The notes under the pieces are model-generated. The model made no database searches, had not been told where the DNA came from, and saw nothing but the letters and a program-made list of their open reading frames with translations. 60,390 nt of DNA from Rhodoferax sp. (GTDB lineage Bacteria > Pseudomonadota > Gammaproteobacteria > Burkholderiales > Burkholderiaceae_C): contig JAEUOX010000043.1 of the NCBI GenBank assembly GCA_016790475.1, positions 1-60,390 on the forward strand, written 5' to 3'. Shown piece by piece: positions 7,572 to 19,009 of this stretch (position 1 is the first letter of the stretch; the number at the start of each line of letters is the position of its first letter). Position numbers and translations under genes: made by a program.

Positions 7572-8489
7572 TCAGCGGCGCCGGGATGCGGAGCGGCGGA
7601 TGGCTTCGTTGATCTCGGCGATCGAACGCTCGATGGCGGCGTCGTCCAGGTCATCGTCATCGGCCGCCGCGGTTTGCGCCGCCTGCACGGTGCTGGAGAA
7701 GCCGCTGTCGCTGACATCGCTGGAGGTGACGGTGCCCTTGGTCGTCTCGAACTCGTCGGGGGACTCCCATTCGAGCGCGATCACGGTGACGTTGTCGCTG
7801 GTGGCCCCGGCCTTCTGCAGCGCGCTTTCGACCAGATCCGGCACCGCAGCGCCGACCGCCTTCATGGACAGCTGGCGGACGATGTCCTCGTCGTCCAGGC
7901 TCCCCCACAGGCCGTCCGAGCACAACATGATCTTGTCGCCCTGCTGCAGGGCCACCGGGCCGCCGATGTCGAAGACCGGCTTGGTCGGCGAACCCAGGCA
8001 GGTGAACAGGATGTTGCGGTTCAGTCGCTCGGCCGCGCGCGAGGCGGACTGACTGGACGGCGGCTGTTCCATGTAGGAGTGGTCGCGTGTGCGGGTGACG
8101 AGCTTGCCTTCGCGCACCAGGTACAGCCGGGAATCCCCGCAATGCACCCAGCTGGCCGAGCCGTCCTGCACCAGCGCGGCGACGACCGTCGTGCGGGGCG
8201 TGTCGAGCATGCCCTTGTCGACAGCGTACTTGATGATCTGCCGATGCGCCGCCATGACCGCCGCGGTCAGGAAGGCCTGCACGTCGTCGATCTTGGGGTT
8301 GGCCTGTTTCTGGTACAGCGCCGAGATGGCCTGCAGCGCCAGTTGCGCGGCGACCTCGCCCTCGGGATGGCCGCCCATGCCGTCGGCCAGCAGCAGGATG
8401 CCGGAAGCCCGCGTGTAGCTGTAGCCCATGCGGTCTTCATTGAGCTGGCGACCCCCCTTGCGGGTGACCTGGAAAACGGAGAACTTCAT
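7572..8489 (-). CDS. PP2C-family Ser/Thr protein phosphatase
   Basis: A 305-residue PP2C (PPM) phosphatase. Metal-binding and catalytic motifs are all there: NEDR at 17-20, ADGMGG at 35-40, [24 protein letters not shown] and SDNVTVIAL. After about residue 250 there is an acidic and Ser/Thr-rich tail ([10 protein letters not shown]) that is not part of the catalytic fold. The start codon overlaps the stop of the kinase gene as ATGA (8486-8489), so the pair is translationally coupled and almost certainly acts on shared targets, including the kinase itself. No substrate is encoded next to them; the downstream genes are RNA and nucleotide housekeeping enzymes. Confidence 0.92.
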
Positions 8490-9493
8490 TTGGGTTTGAT
8501 CACCGACGCGGCAATGCTCTTGGTGTTCTTCTTGGTATCGGTCACCATGGTGTCGAACTGGAGGCGGACCTTCTCGGCCACCGACAGCTTCGTATAGCGG
8601 CGCTCGCCTTCCCGGCTGAGTTCCTTCTGCAAGGCAAACACCGATTGCGGGCGGGACAGCGGATCCAGCGCCATGCACCACTCGACGACCTCGATCAGGT
8701 TGTCGGAGTAGACCCCGCGCAGGCGGGTCAGGGCGGTGGCGATGCGGTCCTTCTCGACACGTTGGGGGGCCTCGTTCGGCGGGTAGCCCTGCATGCAGGC
8801 ATAGATGCACGCGCCGATCGCGTAGATGTCGGTCCAGGGCCCCATCGAGGAGTCGCGCCGGTACATCTCGGGGGCTGCAAAGCCAGGGGTGTACATCGGG
8901 CGGATGAAGTTGCCTTCCTTGCTGAGCACCTCGCGCGCGGCGCCAAAGTCGATCAGCACCGCCCGGTTGTCGTCGGTGATGAAGATGTTGGCCGGCTTGA
9001 TGTCAAGGTGCAGCATCTTGTGCTGGTGCACGATGCGCAGCCCGCGCAGGATCTCGTCGAACAGCGAGCGGATCGTCGATTCACGGAAGACCTTCTGCTG
9101 CTTCAGATCACGGGCCGTGATGATGAAGTCCTGCAGGGCAGCGCCCTCCAGGTAGTTCATGACCATGTAGACCGTCTCGTTCTCGCGGAAGAAGTTCATC
9201 ACGCTGACGACCGAGGGGTGCGAGATCTGTGCCAGCGCCCGGCCTTCCTCGAAGAAGCTCTTCAGACCGAGCCGGTACAGCGACAGCTTTTCGGAGGGCA
9301 CCGTCGGGGCGAGTTCCCCGGGGGCGCGGGTCGCCAGCGAAGCGGGCAGGTATTCCTTGACGGCCACCTGCTGGCCGTCGGCATCCAGCGCCAGGTACAC
9401 GACGCCGAATCCGCCGGCAGCCACTTTGCGGATAATGCGGTAACCGCCGATCATCGTGTCGGGCGGCAATGCGGCGGGTTTGGCCTTGGACAT
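8486..9493 (-). CDS. Ser/Thr protein kinase (Hanks type)
   Basis: A 335-residue eukaryotic-like kinase. Residues 18-50 hold the glycine-rich loop (AAGGFGVVY) and the VAIK-type lysine (VAVKEY, K46); the catalytic loop is HLDIKPANIF (an HLD rather than HRD variant, keeping Asp, Lys and Asn), the magnesium loop is IDFGAAR and the activation-segment end is FAAPEMY. There is no membrane helix or PASTA-like sensor domain; about 60 residues follow the kinase domain. The ATG at 9493 (MSKAKPAALPP) is chosen over a longer frame because it sits just before the domain. It is coupled by ATGA overlap to the PP2C gene and divergent from yicC. Confidence 0.92.
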   Translation of the reverse strand: MSKAKPAALPPDTMIGGYRIIRKVAAGGFGVVYLALDADGQQVAVKEYLPASLATRAPGELAPTVPSEKLSLYRLGLKSFFEEGRALAQISHPSVVSVMNFFRENETVYMVMNYLEGAALQDFIITARDLKQQKVFRESTIRSLFDEILRGLRIVHQHKMLHLDIKPANIFITDDNRAVLIDFGAAREVLSKEGNFIRPMYTPGFAAPEMYRRDSSMGPWTDIYAIGACIYACMQGYPPNEAPQRVEKDRIATALTRLRGVYSDNLIEVVEWCMALDPLSRPQSVFALQKELSREGERRYTKLSVAEKVRLQFDTMVTDTKKNTKSIAASVIKPK

Positions 9494-9576
9494 TCCTGAT
9501 CGGTGCTTGTTGAGGGCATCCAGGCCGGCCCTGGTCGGCGGCACGGGATGTTTCCATCACTTCGGGAAGCGACTTC

Positions 9577-10494
9577 ATGCCAGTTTACAGTATGACCGGC
9601 TACGCAGCGGTCCAGTCCAATGCCGGAAATGCACCCGTGCAGGGTGAAGCGAAAGCCCCCGGTCCCGGAGGCCTGGGCCTGGAAATCCGCTCGGTCAACA
9701 GCCGCTTTCTGGACCTGACGTTTCGGCTCCCGGAAGAACTGCGGCAGCAGGAGCCAGCCCTGCGCGAACTGCTCGGCCAGCAACTCAAGCGCGGCAAGGT
9801 GGAGGTCCGCGTAGCGATCGACACTGGCACAACGGGCCCGGTGGCGGACCCTTCAGCCCGCCTTCTTCAGCGCCTGTCCACCGTCCAGGACCATGTCCGG
9901 GCCTGGCTGCCCCAGGCCGAGCCGCTGCGGGTGGCGGATGTGCTGCGCATCGCCTCATTGGAGCAGATGCCCGGGCAGGAATGGGCCGCAGAAGTGCTGC
10001 CACTGGCTCAGAAGGGCGTGAAAGAGCTGATGCTGGCCCGCAAGCGCGAAGGCGCGCGGCTCGCCGCGGTGCTGCTGGAGCGTGTGGCCGAGATCCGCGC
10101 ACTCGCACAGCAGGCCGTGCCGCTGGTGCCACAGTTGGTGGCGCAGCAGCGTCAGCGTTTCCTGGAGCGCTGGAACGAGGCGATGACCGCTGGCTCCGGA
10201 ACCATCGCGCCGGAGCAAGCCCAGGACCGGGCTCTGGCCGAAGCCACCGCGTTCGCGATCCGGATCGATGTAGCCGAAGAGATCACCCGGCTCAACGCCC
10301 ACCTGGACGAGATCGAACGGCTGCTGCGCCAGGGTGGAGAGATCGGCAAACGGCTGGACTTTCTGATCCAGGAACTGCACCGCGAGGCCAACACGATGGG
10401 GGCCAAGTCCGCAGCGCTGTCGCTGACCCACCTGTCGGTGGACATGAAGGTGCTGATCGAGCAGATGCGCGAGCAGGTGCAGAACATCGAATAA
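9577..10494 (+). CDS. YicC-family endoribonuclease
   Basis: A 305-residue protein with both YicC signatures: the N-terminal MTGYAAV and [20 protein letters not shown], and the C-terminal DUF1732 stretch [17 protein letters not shown] ending in [12 protein letters not shown]. YicC proteins are stress-linked endoribonucleases in enterobacteria; the role in betaproteobacteria is less clear. The gene starts 83 bases from the divergent kinase gene, and its end is 28 bases from the end of the convergent metallo-hydrolase. Yic-C-like genes often stand close to gmk and rpoZ, as here. Length and start are normal. Confidence 0.92.
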
Positions 10495-10522
10495 GCGACG
10501 CGCCCCGTCGTGGCGACGCTGC

Positions 10523-11596
10523 TCAGCGCCGCTGGTACCAGGCGACGCCGTGGTCGTCCAGAGTCACTCGTGCTTCGTCCCGGTGCACCAGATAGTTCAG
10601 GTGCGCCAAGCTCTCACCGGTGGCCATGCCGAGCAGATTGGGCTCGTTGCTGATCGGGCGGGCAAACAGTTCCGGAAACACGTCAATGGCGCGCCGCGGC
10701 TGCGCCAGCGATACGCGCAGCCTGTTCAGGGCCTCGTTCTGGCTTCGTTCAAGGTGGTTCAGCCGGGCATGCAGGCCACGGAAGGGCTCGTTGTGCGAGG
10801 GCAGCACCAGGACGTCGTCCGGCACTTCACGCCGCAGCTTGGCCAGGGACGACAGCCAGTCGCCCAGCGGATCGGCATCCGGTTCGGTCGGGAAGACCGA
10901 CACATTCGACGAGATCCGGGGCAGGACCTGATCGCCCGAGATGAACAGCTTGCGCGCCGGGCAGTGGAAGCAGGCGTGCTCCGGGGAATGGCCGTGGCCG
11001 ACGACGACGCGCCATTCCTGGCCGCCGATCAGGACCCGCTCGTCGTCGAACAGGCGGCGGTAGCTGTCCGGTATCGCGTGGACCAGCTTGCCGAAGCCGC
11101 CGAAGCGCGCACGGTAGTTCTCGATGGCCTCGTCATCCCAGCCGGCGCGCCGGTAGAACTGCACGCCATCGGACGGCACCTCGCGGCCGGTGTCCGCCAC
11201 CAGCACGCGGCACATCAGGTACTCCAGGCGCGTGATCCACAGCCGGCAGTCGAACTTGCGGGTCAGCCAGCCCGCCATGCCCATGTGATCGGGGTGCATG
11301 TGGGTCACGAAGACGCGGGTCAAGCCCTCGGGGCCCAACGCGCCGCCTGCGGCAAAGAGCGTCCGCCAGGCGGCGGCCGTCTCGCTGGTCTGCACACCGC
11401 TGTCGAACACCGCCCATCCGGTGTCGTCGCGAACGGCCCACAGGTTGATGTGCGCCAGCGCGAACGGCAGCGACATCCGCAGCCATTGCACACCGGGCGC
11501 AATCTGGTGCGCCTCGCCGGGCGCCGGAGGTGTTCCGCAGGGGTACTCCAGAACGGGTTTGCCGACGGGGTCGCTGACAAGGCTGTCGTCACTCAT
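10523..11596 (-). CDS. MBL-fold metallo-hydrolase
   Basis: A 357-residue metallo-beta-lactamase-fold hydrolase. The metal-binding motif is THMHPDHMG, followed by the downstream ligand histidine in [14 protein letters not shown] and the SGDQVLP aspartate, all conserved in the glyoxalase-II/LACTB2-type branch. The C-terminal 80 residues form the helical domain that follows the MBL domain in such proteins. Substrate cannot be read from sequence; thioester or nucleic-acid substrates are both possible. The ATG at 11596 is preferred over a TTG five codons earlier. It is divergent from gmk across a 114-base gap. Confidence 0.87.
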
Positions 11597-15588: not shown

Positions 15589-15665
15589 TGGTGCGGCTGG
15601 CAGGAATTGAACCCACGACCCCTTGGTTCGTAGCCAAGTACTCTATCCAACTGAGCTACAGCCGC
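15589..15665 (-). tRNA. tRNA-Arg (anticodon ACG)
   Basis: A complete 77-base cloverleaf on the minus strand. Acceptor arms GCGGCTG and CAGCCGC pair fully, the anticodon stem CTTGG/CCAAG encloses the loop CTACGAA with anticodon ACG, the T arm contains GGTTCAATTCC, and the 3' CCA is encoded. The ACG anticodon would be read as ICG after deamination. Confidence 0.95.
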
Positions 15666-15700
15666 GCAAGACCGAGATTCTAGCACCACAAAATCATGGC

Positions 15701-16726
15701 TCAGGCCCGGCCGGTGTTTTCAGGCCGCAGGCGCAACCAGGATTTGCGCAGAAGGTGTGGCAGCAACAAGCGCATCGGCATCTTCATCCAATGGGAATAG
15801 GCCAGCACGAGTGTGTCGGAGGCTACGCCCCACACCGATGGTGTGGCCCCGTTCGCCTCCCGTGCCGAACGCAGGATGCTGCGCTGCAGCCAGTCCGACG
15901 GGACCCGACCGCCGGGCTGGAACAAGCCCCGGGCGACCGCGGTCGCCGTCGCAACATGGGCTCCAACACCCAACTGTTCGGCGCGCGAAGCCAGTCCCTC
16001 CCGGCTGGACTCCGTCGGGTAATGCTGTTGCAGGAGCAGATGCAGGTCCAACAGGTCACGCAGCAGCTTCTTGGGCTCGCCCTCCTGCAGCAGGTGCAGG
16101 CAGCAGTGCACCACACGATCGGCAGCGCACAGCACGTAGACGCCTGGCTGCACCTCCACCCGGCTCGCCATCAGTGGGCCCGGATTCACATGGCAGCGTG
16201 AAACCGGCGGATTGATCGCATGGTGCAGATCCACCACGGTATGGCGCCGGACATGCTCCATCGGCGGCACTTCGTGCATCCAGTCCCGGTAGTAGGCGGC
16301 GTCATAGTCGTTGACACGGCCAGGTTTCCAGCCAGCGCCGAACAGCGCGCTCTCGGTCGCCGCCAGCTGCGCGCGGGGCACCAGCAGGTCCACATCCGAG
16401 AAGAGCCGTCCCTCGCCGTTGACGTCTCCGCCGGCCGCATAGGCACAGCCCTTGAGCAGGGTCAGAGGGATGTCCGGATCCACGGCTCGGCGAATCGCGT
16501 TGACTTCCCACAGGGCCGCCAGCCTGCGCTGCCGCGCAGTCAAAGCAGCAAGCTCCAGATGGCGCCTGACGGCGGCGGGCGCCATATCGGTACATCCAGC
16601 ACGATGCATCAGCGCGGACAGTTGCCCGAGCACCTGCGCCCGCCGGCCCACCTCCACGACGGCATGCCATTGCGCATCACGCAGGGACGCTGCACGACGC
16701 GGGTCGGCGAGCAACTCGATCAACAC
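15701..16726 (-). CDS. Nucleotidyltransferase-family protein of the HprK-related cassette
   Basis: A protein of about 341 residues resembling the NTP_transf_5 family (PF14907). The polymerase-beta-like motif is visible as LLKGCAYAAGG followed by GEGRLFSDVDLLVPRAQL, where S-D-V-D gives the metal-binding aspartates. A later segment VVDLHHAINPP supplies the third conserved acidic strand, and the C-terminal half is helical with VHCCLHLLQEG. The start is uncertain: GTG 16726 lies just before the conserved sequence and overlaps the kinase stop by seven bases, but GTG 16738 and TTG 16753 are in frame. It is the last gene of a four-gene unit with the HprK-related kinase. The acceptor of the nucleotide is unknown. 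Confidence 0.78.
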   Translation of the reverse strand: MLIELLADPRRAASLRDAQWHAVVEVGRRAQVLGQLSALMHRAGCTDMAPAAVRRHLELAALTARQRRLAALWEVNAIRRAVDPDIPLTLLKGCAYAAGGDVNGEGRLFSDVDLLVPRAQLAATESALFGAGWKPGRVNDYDAAYYRDWMHEVPPMEHVRRHTVVDLHHAINPPVSRCHVNPGPLMASRVEVQPGVYVLCAADRVVHCCLHLLQEGEPKKLLRDLLDLHLLLQQHYPTESSREGLASRAEQLGVGAHVATATAVARGLFQPGGRVPSDWLQRSILRSAREANGATPSVWGVASDTLVLAYSHWMKMPMRLLLPHLLRKSWLRLRPENTGRA

Positions 16727-17643
16727 TCTGGAATGCACGTGGAATTGACCCAATCGACAATCGAGTCCAGATCACCGTACTCGACCGCATAGCATTTCGC
16801 ACCCGCGATCGCCCGGGCCAGTGCCTCGAACCCCTCAGCGCCCAGCAGTCCGATATTGAATGTGTTGTCCATCAGTTCGGCCAGTGCCACGGCACGCGGC
16901 AATGGCTCGTACACCAGTGAGGTCCCTGCCTTGAATTTCGGGAACACCAGAAATCCGACCGGAACCGTCTCTCCGACACTTCGAACCGCCGCCGTCGGTG
17001 GCCGTGCATAGGCGATGGAGCCTTTGTGGGTGTCTTCGATGGGGTCCGTGATGTCGGCTGCCGGAAAGGCCTTGCGGATCAGGTCGATCGAAGTGCCTTT
17101 GAGGCTCACCGGCCGGGGCACGGGCTGAACCTGTCCGTCGGCGTGCGCGATGATGGTCAGTTCGTCGGACAGGATGCGCCAGTCGCCCAATGCCAGCGCA
17201 GCACACAAGGTGCTCTTGCCGGATCCGGGCTGACCCGGCAGCACCAGCGCCAAGCCGTTGCGCTCGACAACAGCGGAGTGAATGACGGTGTGCATGCCGC
17301 TGGCCGTGGCAACGCACCAGTTCAGACCCCATTCGAACAGCGGGTGGGCTTGCGTGATCGGGAGTGGCGGGAAGGGCGTCGAGCCTTCCCAGTCGAATTC
17401 CACCTTCCAGGCGCGCCAGGGGAACTCCCGCTTTCGCATCAGGTTGATGCGGAAATCGAAAAAGCCGGTGGCATCCGGGTCACAAAGGAAATCTCTGTAG
17501 AGAAGGTGCAATGGCGCCGTCAGTTGCCCGGTATCTGAACGAATCAGCGCACGGAAGCTACCGATCTCCAGGCCCAGCCCGGCTCCCGCCAGGCATCGGG
17601 AGACCTGATCGTCACTGAGCGAACCCAACAAGATGCCGGACAT
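16720..17643 (-). CDS. HprK-related kinase A
   Basis: A 307-residue P-loop protein related to the kinase domain of HPr kinase/phosphorylase. The Walker A motif GQPGSGKST is at 137-145 and ILSDELTII (157-165) matches the acidic strand that follows in HprK-type kinases; VPRPVSLKG and VGFLVFPKF are also typical of the related family. The N-terminal 120 residues do not resemble the HprK N-terminal domain. From memory, TIGRFAM defines an HprK-related kinase A found with a PqqD-like protein and a nucleotidyltransferase, which is exactly this neighbourhood. It is not canonical HprK: the C-terminal K3-type loop is not evident. ATG 17643 is chosen since the frame above it has no conserved sequence. 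Phosphoacceptor unknown. Confidence 0.83.
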   Translation of the reverse strand: MSGILLGSLSDDQVSRCLAGAGLGLEIGSFRALIRSDTGQLTAPLHLLYRDFLCDPDATGFFDFRINLMRKREFPWRAWKVEFDWEGSTPFPPLPITQAHPLFEWGLNWCVATASGMHTVIHSAVVERNGLALVLPGQPGSGKSTLCAALALGDWRILSDELTIIAHADGQVQPVPRPVSLKGTSIDLIRKAFPAADITDPIEDTHKGSIAYARPPTAAVRSVGETVPVGFLVFPKFKAGTSLVYEPLPRAVALAELMDNTFNIGLLGAEGFEALARAIAGAKCYAVEYGDLDSIVDWVNSTCIPEC

Positions 17644-17688
17644 CCGGTGATTGTGCCGGCAAATTCGGCACGGCCTCACGCTGCCCGA

Positions 17689-17943
17689 TCAGGTCAGGGC
17701 GACACCCAATGTGTCCAGCAAATCGCGCAATTGATCTCCGTCCGCAGCTTCCAGGGAGGCCGCTGAGCCACCCGCGTCAAGCGCCTGGGTCAGCGATGTC
17801 CACGCGTCCTTGGGGCAAAGGACTACTTCTGCAGTGGCTGCACAAAAAAGCGCCACATGGGTTTCTGCGGCATAGGTGATCGCCACCCATTCGCCGCGAT
17901 GCGCCACTGCCAGGGAGTCATTGCCCTGTCGGGATGCCCCCAT
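17689..17943 (-). CDS. PqqD-like protein of the HprK-related cassette
   Basis: A small protein of 84 residues that fits the PqqD-like fold: a beta hairpin region (WVAITYAAETHVALFCAATAEVVLC) followed by helices ending LRDLLDTLGVALT. PqqD-type domains bind precursor peptides and present them to modifying enzymes. Sequence similarity to true PqqD is low; the assignment leans on length, secondary-structure pattern and position between the kinase and the exported protein. It starts at ATG 17943, six bases below the exported-protein stop, and ends 45 bases above the kinase start, so the genes are co-transcribed. Confidence 0.6.
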   Translation of the reverse strand: MGASRQGNDSLAVAHRGEWVAITYAAETHVALFCAATAEVVLCPKDAWTSLTQALDAGGSAASLEAADGDQLRDLLDTLGVALT

Positions 17944-17949
17944 GTCCGA

Positions 17950-18603
17950 TCAGTTCCAGGTCTGCTTGAGGAACCCGATCAGATTGTTGATCTGCAGTTC
18001 ACCGGTCTGAATCTTGATGACTTCTTCCGCGGTCAGCGCGTAGTTGGTGACGGCCAGTGCGTTGAGGTAGGCCGCACAAAGAAACCAGTTCATGTTGCCG
18101 GCAGAGTTTCCACTCTCGTCAATCAGGATTCTGCTGAAGCTGCGCCCTTCGTTGCTACCGGTAAAGATCTCATTGAACTTCGTGCCGGTAGCCCAACGGG
18201 GGTCGGTCCACGCAATGCCGCTCCAGGACAGGTTGGGCTGGCTGGTGTAGTTGGAAAAGGGCACGACGGTCGGTGCCGGCCATGCAATGGACTGAAATGT
18301 TTGTCCGTTCTTGTTGGGGCGCCAGTAGCCAGGTGACCTGCCCAGCGAATTCCTGCCGACGGCATGCGACATGGCGGCACACATGCGACCGTCCGGAGAC
18401 AGCGACGCCCAGGCCATCGGCGAAAGTCCTCCCACGGCCAACTCGGAGCAGATGGGTGCCGCCATTGCCGAGCGGCCACTCACGGCCAGCATCACCGGCG
18501 CAGCGGACAGGCCGGCACGCAGCAGATGCCGCCGCCCGATGCCAGTCCTCCCCGGCGCAGGGGCCTCGTCCTGGGTGCTTTGGGTATCTGGATTTGTCGA
18601 CAT
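17950..18603 (-). CDS. Exported protein with twin-arginine-type signal and SPGYW motif, function unknown
   Basis: A 217-residue protein heading the cassette. An N-terminal polar stretch of 23 residues leads to GRRHLLRAG (24-25 are the arginine pair), a hydrophobic core and a likely cleavage site after SAMA (48), so Tat or Sec export is probable. The mature part of about 169 residues is rich in Trp, Ser and Asn, has three cysteines, and contains SPGYW at 90-94; a similar GYW element recurs in assorted exported bacterial proteins. No enzymatic motif is recognised. Being first in an operon with a kinase, a peptide-binding PqqD-like protein and a nucleotidyltransferase makes it the obvious candidate substrate, which is inference. 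Confidence 0.75.
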   Translation of the reverse strand: MSTNPDTQSTQDEAPAPGRTGIGRRHLLRAGLSAAPVMLAVSGRSAMAAPICSELAVGGLSPMAWASLSPDGRMCAAMSHAVGRNSLGRSPGYWRPNKNGQTFQSIAWPAPTVVPFSNYTSQPNLSWSGIAWTDPRWATGTKFNEIFTGSNEGRSFSRILIDESGNSAGNMNWFLCAAYLNALAVTNYALTAEEVIKIQTGELQINNLIGFLKQTWN

Positions 18604-18932
18604 AGTAATTACCTGGCTAAAGGACTGGACCGAGGAAGGCGCCGGATGCGCCCCGATCGACGTCAGCGTTCAGTATGCACGTTGACCACGAACCTCCACT
18701 GTCTACCCGTACTGCTGGGCACGAAGCAAGATCCAGGCCATCAGGAAGACGCTTTCTAAGCCTTTGATTTTCCATCAGAAAGACCCATGCCCTGGACGCT
18801 GGCGGCAGGTCCACGAACAATTCTGTAAAGCCTGCCGACAGGCTGACAGCAGGACGCCCGGTACCCCATCGCACGAACCGGCACAGGCTCACCGAGAACA
18901 CTCTGGCCCACATCGCTCACGCACTCCCGGCT
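18604..18932. other. Intergenic region upstream of the HprK-related cassette
   Basis: About 330 bases between the first cassette gene and the tRNA gene. It must hold the cassette promoter (minus strand), but no clear -35/-10 pair is seen. The open frames here show no codon bias or recognisable domain. The only distinct structure is the hairpin at 18829-18844, listed separately. Confidence 0.5.
18829..18844. repeat. Inverted repeat AGCCTG-CCGA-CAGGCT
   Basis: Perfect 6-bp stem with a 4-base loop. On the minus strand it lies 89 bases downstream of the tRNA 3' end and is followed by TTTACAG, so it could be a weak terminator. The GCCTG-N4-CAGGC core recurs at 34127-34140 and 49448-49461. Confidence 0.55.
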
Positions 18933-19009
18933 TGGTAGGGCGTGTTGGACTTGAACCAACGACCAAAGGATTATGAGTCCTCTGCTCTGACCAACTGAGC
19001 TAACGCCCC
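18933..19009 (-). tRNA. tRNA with anticodon CAT (Met elongator or Ile2)
   Basis: A 77-base tRNA on the minus strand with encoded CCA. The anticodon loop is CTCATAA. The D arm TTAGCTCAGTTGG and the T arm GGTTCAAGTCC are regular. The acceptor stem GGGGCGT/ACGCCCT pairs except that the first pair is G-U. CAT may be elongator Met or, if its cytidine is lysidinylated by TilS, Ile2; the anticodon-stem sequence GACTCATAATC resembles both groups, so identity is left open. Confidence 0.92.

Follow-up and report, generated by a model that had tools for sequence, protein, structure and literature searches.

The closest described relatives of the system considered here are peptide-modifying gene clusters, known to us from the available portions of the reports cited. 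The linear polyphosphorylated peptides (LPP) of Bacillota depend on a core set comprising a signal-peptidase-like enzyme, a recognition element for ribosomally synthesized and post-translationally modified peptides (RiPP recognition element, RRE), an HprK-like kinase, a nucleoside triphosphate (NTP) transferase and a transporter; the kinase, LppK, which clusters with the RRE and the NTP transferase, puts phosphates on Ser3 of the precursor (PMC13381572). For pseudomycoidin, phosphorylation by PsmK is described as being followed by the addition of a hexose to the phosphoserine by PsmN, nucleotidylation and subsequent action of a host glycosyltransferase having remained possible, and a His-Lys-Asp-Asp motif is reported in the lasso kinases (PMC9266682). 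Bufferin precursors bear signals for the general secretory (Sec) pathway that are perhaps part of recognition, a delay of export also being needed (PMC12452194). NCBIfam names a further kinase family 'HprK-related kinase A' (TIGR04352) and its small partner 'HPr-rel-A system PqqD family peptide chaperone' (TIGR04353); in the literature and records searched, no substrate was found for this pair. Here we describe a four-gene cassette with such a kinase in a stretch of Rhodoferax sp. DNA of 60,390 nucleotides (contig JAEUOX010000043.1; the window). It encodes a kinase, a nucleotidyltransferase, a small RRE/PqqD-like protein and a protein with a signal for twin-arginine translocation (Tat), and we read it, with a probability of about 0.6, as a modification-and-export unit in which the RRE protein holds the Tat protein, the kinase phosphorylates it, the transferase follows and the product leaves through Tat.

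The four cassette genes are consecutive on the minus strand between a tRNA-Met and a tRNA-Arg gene (Table 1), exactly where the original prediction, made from the letters of the window, had placed them, and the motifs that it had picked out, GQPGSGKST in the kinase and SDVDLLV in the transferase, are both present. An alternative GTG start of the kinase is open at 17679, and the transferase, which has a TTG start, overlaps the end of the kinase gene. A further copy of all four genes lies on another contig of the same genome (L005, ~8096-11100, plus strand); its kinase is ~39% identical to that of the window and reaches 361 bits against TIGR04352. This copy, together with the finding that the majority of the 141 loci compared have most of the genes, puts the gene set beyond chance.

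Table 1 The cassette and its borders in the window
Feature	Position	Strand	Product	Basis or role
tRNA-Arg(acg)	15589-15665	minus		one border of the insertion slot
NTP_transf_5 nucleotidyltransferase	15701-16753	minus	350 aa	PF14907 (158 bits) and alignment
HprK-related kinase A	16720-17643	minus	307 aa from ATG	TIGR04352 (306 bits) and alignment
RRE/PqqD-like protein, putatively divergent	17689-17943	minus	84 aa	
Exported protein with Tat signal	17950-18603	minus	217 aa, GIGRRHLLRAGLSAAPVMLAVSGRSAMAA	proposed substrate, class A
Twin-arginine signal peptide	18460-18603	minus	residues 1-48	proposed leader; read from sequence
tRNA-Met(cat)	18933-19009	minus		other border of the insertion slot, beside hrcA

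Of 398 genomes sampled evenly from the phylum, 61 carry a kinase that exceeds the TIGR04352 cut-off (kinase genomes below). The 141 loci comprise stretches from 59 of these genomes (L035-L093; G173, with fragments only, is omitted and a weak match, L094, was discarded), 80 named loci, the window and the second copy. The named loci are the best 80 of 571 relatives in one scan, so that this set leans to near kin, and the sampling is centred on the window's phylum, nearly all loci being from Pseudomonadota and one (L107) from Thermodesulfobacteriota. The transferase profile matches 131/141 loci, two of the ten misses having fewer than 140 bases of downstream sequence, and the RRE/PqqD-like profile matches 118/141. 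Among the loci listed, most have a Tat-signal protein upstream of the kinase, and the order Tat-RRE-kinase holds in all 110 loci in which an adjacent Tat protein was called along with a profile-recognized RRE. Three Tat-partner profiles, built from 114 kinase-adjacent proteins that are themselves among the called partners, match 131/141 kinase loci at E ≤ 0.01; in L051 the partner lies downstream on the opposite strand. Three misses (L093, L100 and L132) have just 2, 325 and 98 bases of upstream sequence, and L144 gave no match within the locus, which was all that was searched. In six others (L053, L054, L060, L068, L077 and L092) the partner gene lies outside the locus, in another part of the genome (G069, G081, G022, G125, G268 and G214, respectively), as expected for an enzyme and its substrate; the off-locus partners of G081, G125 and G268 were read and have twin-arginine (RR) signals.

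The partner is also specific to kinase genomes as a whole, being matched at E ≤ 1e-3 in 60/61 of them versus 11/337 genomes without the kinase, and at 1e-5 in 59/61 versus 2/337. The lone kinase genome with no match at E ≤ 1e-3 (G189) is 57% complete. As the profiles were seeded with kinase-adjacent proteins, kinase genomes contributing no seed give the fairer figure, 29/30. These counts bear out the expectation that the four genes co-occur in relatives. No further constant gene emerged among clusters of at least 8 loci (141 loci, open reading frames (ORFs) of at least 110 codons only), and the Tat protein is the sole near-constant non-enzyme partner seen besides the RRE protein. RREs bind peptides, and clusters that contain them usually modify short precursors, so that the set might instead act on a separate, unnoticed short peptide, with the Tat protein exported alongside as a receptor, an immunity protein or an assembly factor. 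Short ORFs were covered non-exhaustively, which leaves room for such a peptide, but the constancy of the Tat protein and the lack of a second constant gene among the clusters listed make this account improbable. It is the presence of LPP- and pseudomycoidin-like enzymes together with a near-constant Tat-signal partner that points to the Tat protein itself as the substrate.

The exported protein of the window has RR at residues 24-25, Cys52, Ser67, SPGYW at 90-94 and AAYLN at 177-181. Its twin-arginine motif, hydrophobic stretch and AxA site (AMA/A, placed by eye near residue 48) are features of a Tat substrate, from which export itself is predicted. Neither Pfam nor NCBIfam has a family that it matches at E ≤ 1; scans against both databases gave isolated weak matches only for 34 members of class A and 18 of class B, and seven class C members, against Pfam only, gave one weak match. 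The 123 called partners measure 82-288 residues including the signal (median 200), and the short protein originally proposed as the target therefore gives way to a longer candidate. In class A, to which the window belongs (85 aligned of 91), RR is present in 85/85, having been a requirement when most members were detected, Cys52 in 82/85, Ser67 in 83/85, Trp108 in 78/85 and Asn181 in 72/85. Class B (27 aligned of 30) has RR, Lys42, Pro49, Thr53, Cys69, Cys90 and a C-terminal Cys178-Trp179-x-Ser181 in 27/27, and class C (8 aligned of 9) has TC[FY]ASLQ near the C terminus in 8/8, replaced by TCFLSVQ in a Sphingomonas plasmid relative. The class of the exported protein tracks the kinase tree, with 12 changes versus a shuffled mean of 46.5 and a value as low in 0/200 shuffles (maximum likelihood by a quick method, 141 kinases, several long branches).

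Compared beyond the Tat consensus, the signals give a mixed picture. A class A signal profile ranks class B signals above ordinary Tat signals (area under the curve (AUC) 0.89, p 6e-5, 12 non-redundant; 26 ordinary signals from relatives), and the motif [TSA][LVIA]x[SN][GRKQSPT], chosen post hoc, is found in 54/85 class A, 17/27 class B, 0/8 class C and 1/26 ordinary signals. By these tests, a leader within the Tat signal is plausible for classes A and B and no more than possible for class C. Several individual members merit mention. L061 encodes a class B Tat protein of just 82 residues that still ends in SCLDSF, comparable to the CWxSF end of the class. In each of L136, L165 and L167 a pair of class A Tat paralogues lies downstream of the kinase, 2-4 kb from its start, which suggests a single enzyme set for two substrates. 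In the two genomes without the kinase that have a partner match at 1e-5 (G342, L182:1342-3594; G284, L183:2487-3353), a SPGYW/ALLNA-type domain, for which no Pfam family was matched in class A, lies on Sec-looking exported proteins that have neither the RR leader of the cassette set nor the Ser67 segment; this domain thus seems to be more widespread than the cassette.

The window kinase belongs to HprK-related kinase A by curated cut-off (306 bits against TIGR04352, E 2e-91, cut-off 200), and the family names agree with the HprK-related-A system named in the first description. Ordinary HPr kinase/phosphorylase, the identity then set against it, was rejected, as the window kinase gave only 13.9 bits against TIGR00679 and did not reach its cut-off of 240. 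The best sequence match in the PDB is an HPr kinase (E 7e-4). H122, the P-loop K143 and D160-E161 are invariant across 28 aligned kinases (window included) and, matched by eye, resemble the His-Lys-Asp-Asp motif of the lasso kinases, with Glu in place of the last Asp. HprK is a regulatory enzyme, and this distant similarity would allow a kinase that regulates some cytoplasmic protein, the Tat protein being a downstream effector and not a substrate. Such a role is very unlikely, given the low score against the HPr kinase family, the RRE-type partner in most loci, the tracking of the kinase phylogeny by the exported class and the retention of the partner even where its gene lies apart from the kinase locus. 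At G036:C25:18225-21357, a kinase that falls short of the TIGR04352 cut-off lies ~2 kb from a weak Tat-partner match and may represent a remoter form of the system.

The transferase reaches 158 bits against PF14907 (cut-off 31.2), and K101-G102 and D120xD122 are invariant in 22 aligned transferases (window included), the DxD site presumably being of the pol-beta type by fold. The family originally named for it therefore stands, while nucleotide transfer, proposed with it, becomes just one option, because PsmN, the nearest transferase that has been studied, reportedly puts a hexose on phosphoserine. In L239, a locus that is perhaps decayed or sequencing-damaged, the transferase gene is split over two frames and no Tat partner was found on the short contig. 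Kinase and transferase could also make or activate a small molecule, either a phosphorylated sugar or a nucleotide cofactor, that is attached to or carried by the Tat protein, which would then be cofactor-bearing and not a phosphoprotein, with the RRE protein as a scaffold. Tat often exports folded proteins loaded with cofactor, sugar nucleotides are on offer in the exopolysaccharide setting described below and the presumed pol-beta-type site would suit such chemistry. We nevertheless consider this unlikely, as the RRE is a peptide-binding element and alignment of classes A, B and C gives no conserved site common to the mature parts of all three; moreover, related HprK-type kinases are described, in the excerpts available, as modifying precursor peptides (PMC9266682, PMC13381572).

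The 84-residue protein of the window reaches the cut-off of no Pfam or NCBIfam family, and it matches neither TIGR04353 (cut-off 35 bits) nor PF05402 at E ≤ 1. Nineteen other small proteins of the family were scanned, all of which match TIGR04353 and eight of which match PF05402 at E ≤ 0.01, with two RRE members matching HvfC weakly. Ten of the 23 loci that the RRE profile missed, namely the window and its nine nearest relatives, have a small ORF in the equivalent position, the sequences being mutually alignable. The PqqD-like character originally assigned to the 84-residue protein thus fails by sequence profiles and is supported weakly by fold, the predicted model being nearest to RRE proteins, which weakly suggests a divergent RRE.

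In the modification-and-export unit that we propose, the Tat protein would be synthesized in the cytoplasm, where the RRE protein would hold its N-terminal part, most probably the Tat signal, and deliver it to the HprK-type kinase. The kinase would phosphorylate a conserved hydroxyl, the best candidates being Ser67 in class A, the CWxS serine in class B and the C[FY]xS serine in class C, and the NTP_transf_5 enzyme would then add a hexose or a nucleotide to the phosphorylated protein. Retention of the signal until modification is complete would amount to proofreading, after which the folded protein would exit via Tat and act outside the cell, often in an XrtA/exosortase-type exopolysaccharide setting. 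The enzymes would thus tag the Tat protein probably with phosphate, and perhaps with a sugar, before export; Tat export would suit a protein whose modification in the cytoplasm has to precede it. A more specific proposal, which we regard as tentative, is a RiPP-like class in which the Tat signal doubles as the leader read by the RRE, a phospho-sugar is built on a conserved serine of the mature protein by the HprK-type kinase and the pol-beta-type transferase, release by the RRE acts as Tat proofreading and the phosphoglycosylated product goes to the polysaccharide matrix of exosortase-type bacteria.

In this proposal the gene set, the specificity of the partner, the type of leader, the conserved active-site residues and the exopolysaccharide setting of many loci are observed, and the RRE fold of the window protein weakly so; the Tat protein as substrate, its acceptor residue, the sequence of events, the sugar or nucleotide added and the role are predictions. 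Several observations weigh against the proposed unit, which is a reading of genes in which the modification is predicted. The small proteins of the second copy and of eight window relatives also fail to match TIGR04353 at E ≤ 1, the fold scores of the window model are low and a profile comparison of window-type proteins with recognized RREs is poor (probability 10.5%). The reverse signal test, a class B profile applied to class A, is weak (AUC 0.61, p 0.058), and class C signals are not separated from ordinary Tat signals (AUC 0.44 and 0.38, 5 non-redundant). The candidate acceptor varies by class, with no strictly common motif, and in some kinase genomes (for example, G102, G126 and G303) the partner match spans little beyond the signal. 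An exosortase was found in only 6/22 class B genomes, a comparison in which class is confounded with taxonomy, and 16/22 have no detectable one (for example, G026, G030, G045 and G073). Finally, in the available portion of the LPP study, deletion of LppN was without effect in the host (PMC13381572), so that the transferase step is unproven even in that relative.

Many cassette loci lie in an exopolysaccharide setting. Two class B loci have XrtA/PEP-CTERM glycosyltransferases as neighbours, with TIGR03087 in both and TIGR03088 in the single locus tested for it; their asparagine-synthase-like neighbours are the XrtA amidotransferase TIGR03108 and score below the lasso cyclase cut-off. TIGR03027, the XrtA protein for exopolysaccharide export, neighbours two class A loci. 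Like sequence clusters, not individually profiled, occur in 18-29 loci, those of the class B kinds in 19 to 26, mainly of class B, and that of the class A kind in 29 of class A. In a hand-chosen set of 80 genomes, exosortase (PF09721) was found in 24/40 with the kinase and 11/40 without it, and in 18/18 kinase genomes outside class B, the window's included (12 class A, 3 class C and 3 of unclear class, G102, G268 and G303). The class B genomes of this set mostly have no detectable exosortase, though two class B loci carry XrtA-type glycosyltransferases and an amidotransferase. A cluster of trypsin-like proteases, one member of which was identified as Trypsin_2, lies near 43/91 class A loci; such a protease (for example, L038:4086-4874) could process the exported protein.

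The near-constant Tat-exported partner gives the question of the HPr-rel-A substrate a direct test. If the Tat signal is the leader, RiPP-type recognition would be linked to Tat proofreading, and, if the proposal is true, protein phosphorylation, perhaps phosphoglycosylation, would become part of XrtA exopolysaccharide biology in many Pseudomonadota, a setting that is still little understood.

The slot flanked by tRNA-Met (next to hrcA) and tRNA-Arg (next to greB), window 15589-19009, was compared in L236, L237, L238 and L245 and looks like an insertion hotspot. The kinase is present in four of six congeners searched: in two (G399 and G402) other cassettes lie between the same tRNA genes, in G400 the cassette adjoins tRNA-Met on a contig that stops short of the other border and G401 carries its cassette on a different contig. 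The kinases of G399, G400 and G402 are 36-39% identical to that of the window, and their orientation relative to hrcA is opposite. The slot is empty in G406, with 213 bases between the tRNAs, and occupied by other genes in G405 and G404. Neither hrcA nor greB was found within the loci of the window's closest relatives (L095-L101). The kinase occurs on 4 of 72,556 plasmid records, three from Vibrio alfacsensis and one from Sphingomonas; in both plasmid records read, a Tat-signal protein annotated 'hypothetical protein' lies upstream.

As far as the available portions of those reports allow comparison, the cassette resembles the LPP clusters in its HprK-type kinase, discrete RRE and NTP transferase, in precursors of 35-200 residues and in its association with polysaccharide loci. 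It differs in that the LPP core includes a SipW-like peptidase and an MsbA-like transporter, whereas the cassette precursor has a Tat signal; neither protein is among the recurring neighbour clusters listed, no dedicated profile having been run. LPP are from Bacillota, whereas the cassette, in a sampling centred on the window's phylum, belongs almost wholly to Pseudomonadota, and the precursor motif YxxPxVLxHQxIxFETxxS (PMC13381572) occurs in 0/123 partners, window included, with the looser [YW]xxPx[LVIFA] in the first 100 residues of 2/123 and also somewhere in the window protein. The paeninodin and pseudomycoidin lasso clusters (PadeK, PsmK, PsmN; PMC9266682) likewise combine a kinase, a nucleotidyltransferase and an RRE (B1), and their kinase targets a serine of the precursor; that precursor is short, whereas a whole protein is the likely substrate in the cassette. 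Neither a lasso cyclase nor a B2 protease came to notice, the profile search having covered two neighbours (both the XrtA amidotransferase) and no genome-wide search for a cyclase having been made. Bufferins and other RiPPs modified by multinuclear non-haem iron-dependent oxidative enzymes (MNIOs) share an N-terminal export signal with a possible part in recognition and some long precursors, but differ in their oxidative chemistry, mostly on Cys, in Sec export and in their other partner proteins (PMC12452194). The HPr-rel-A system itself corresponds in part: the window RRE falls outside TIGR04353, but the kinase is a member by curated cut-off, the PF14907 transferase is adjacent and the RRE-kinase-transferase order matches that of the annotated Sphingomonas plasmid record.

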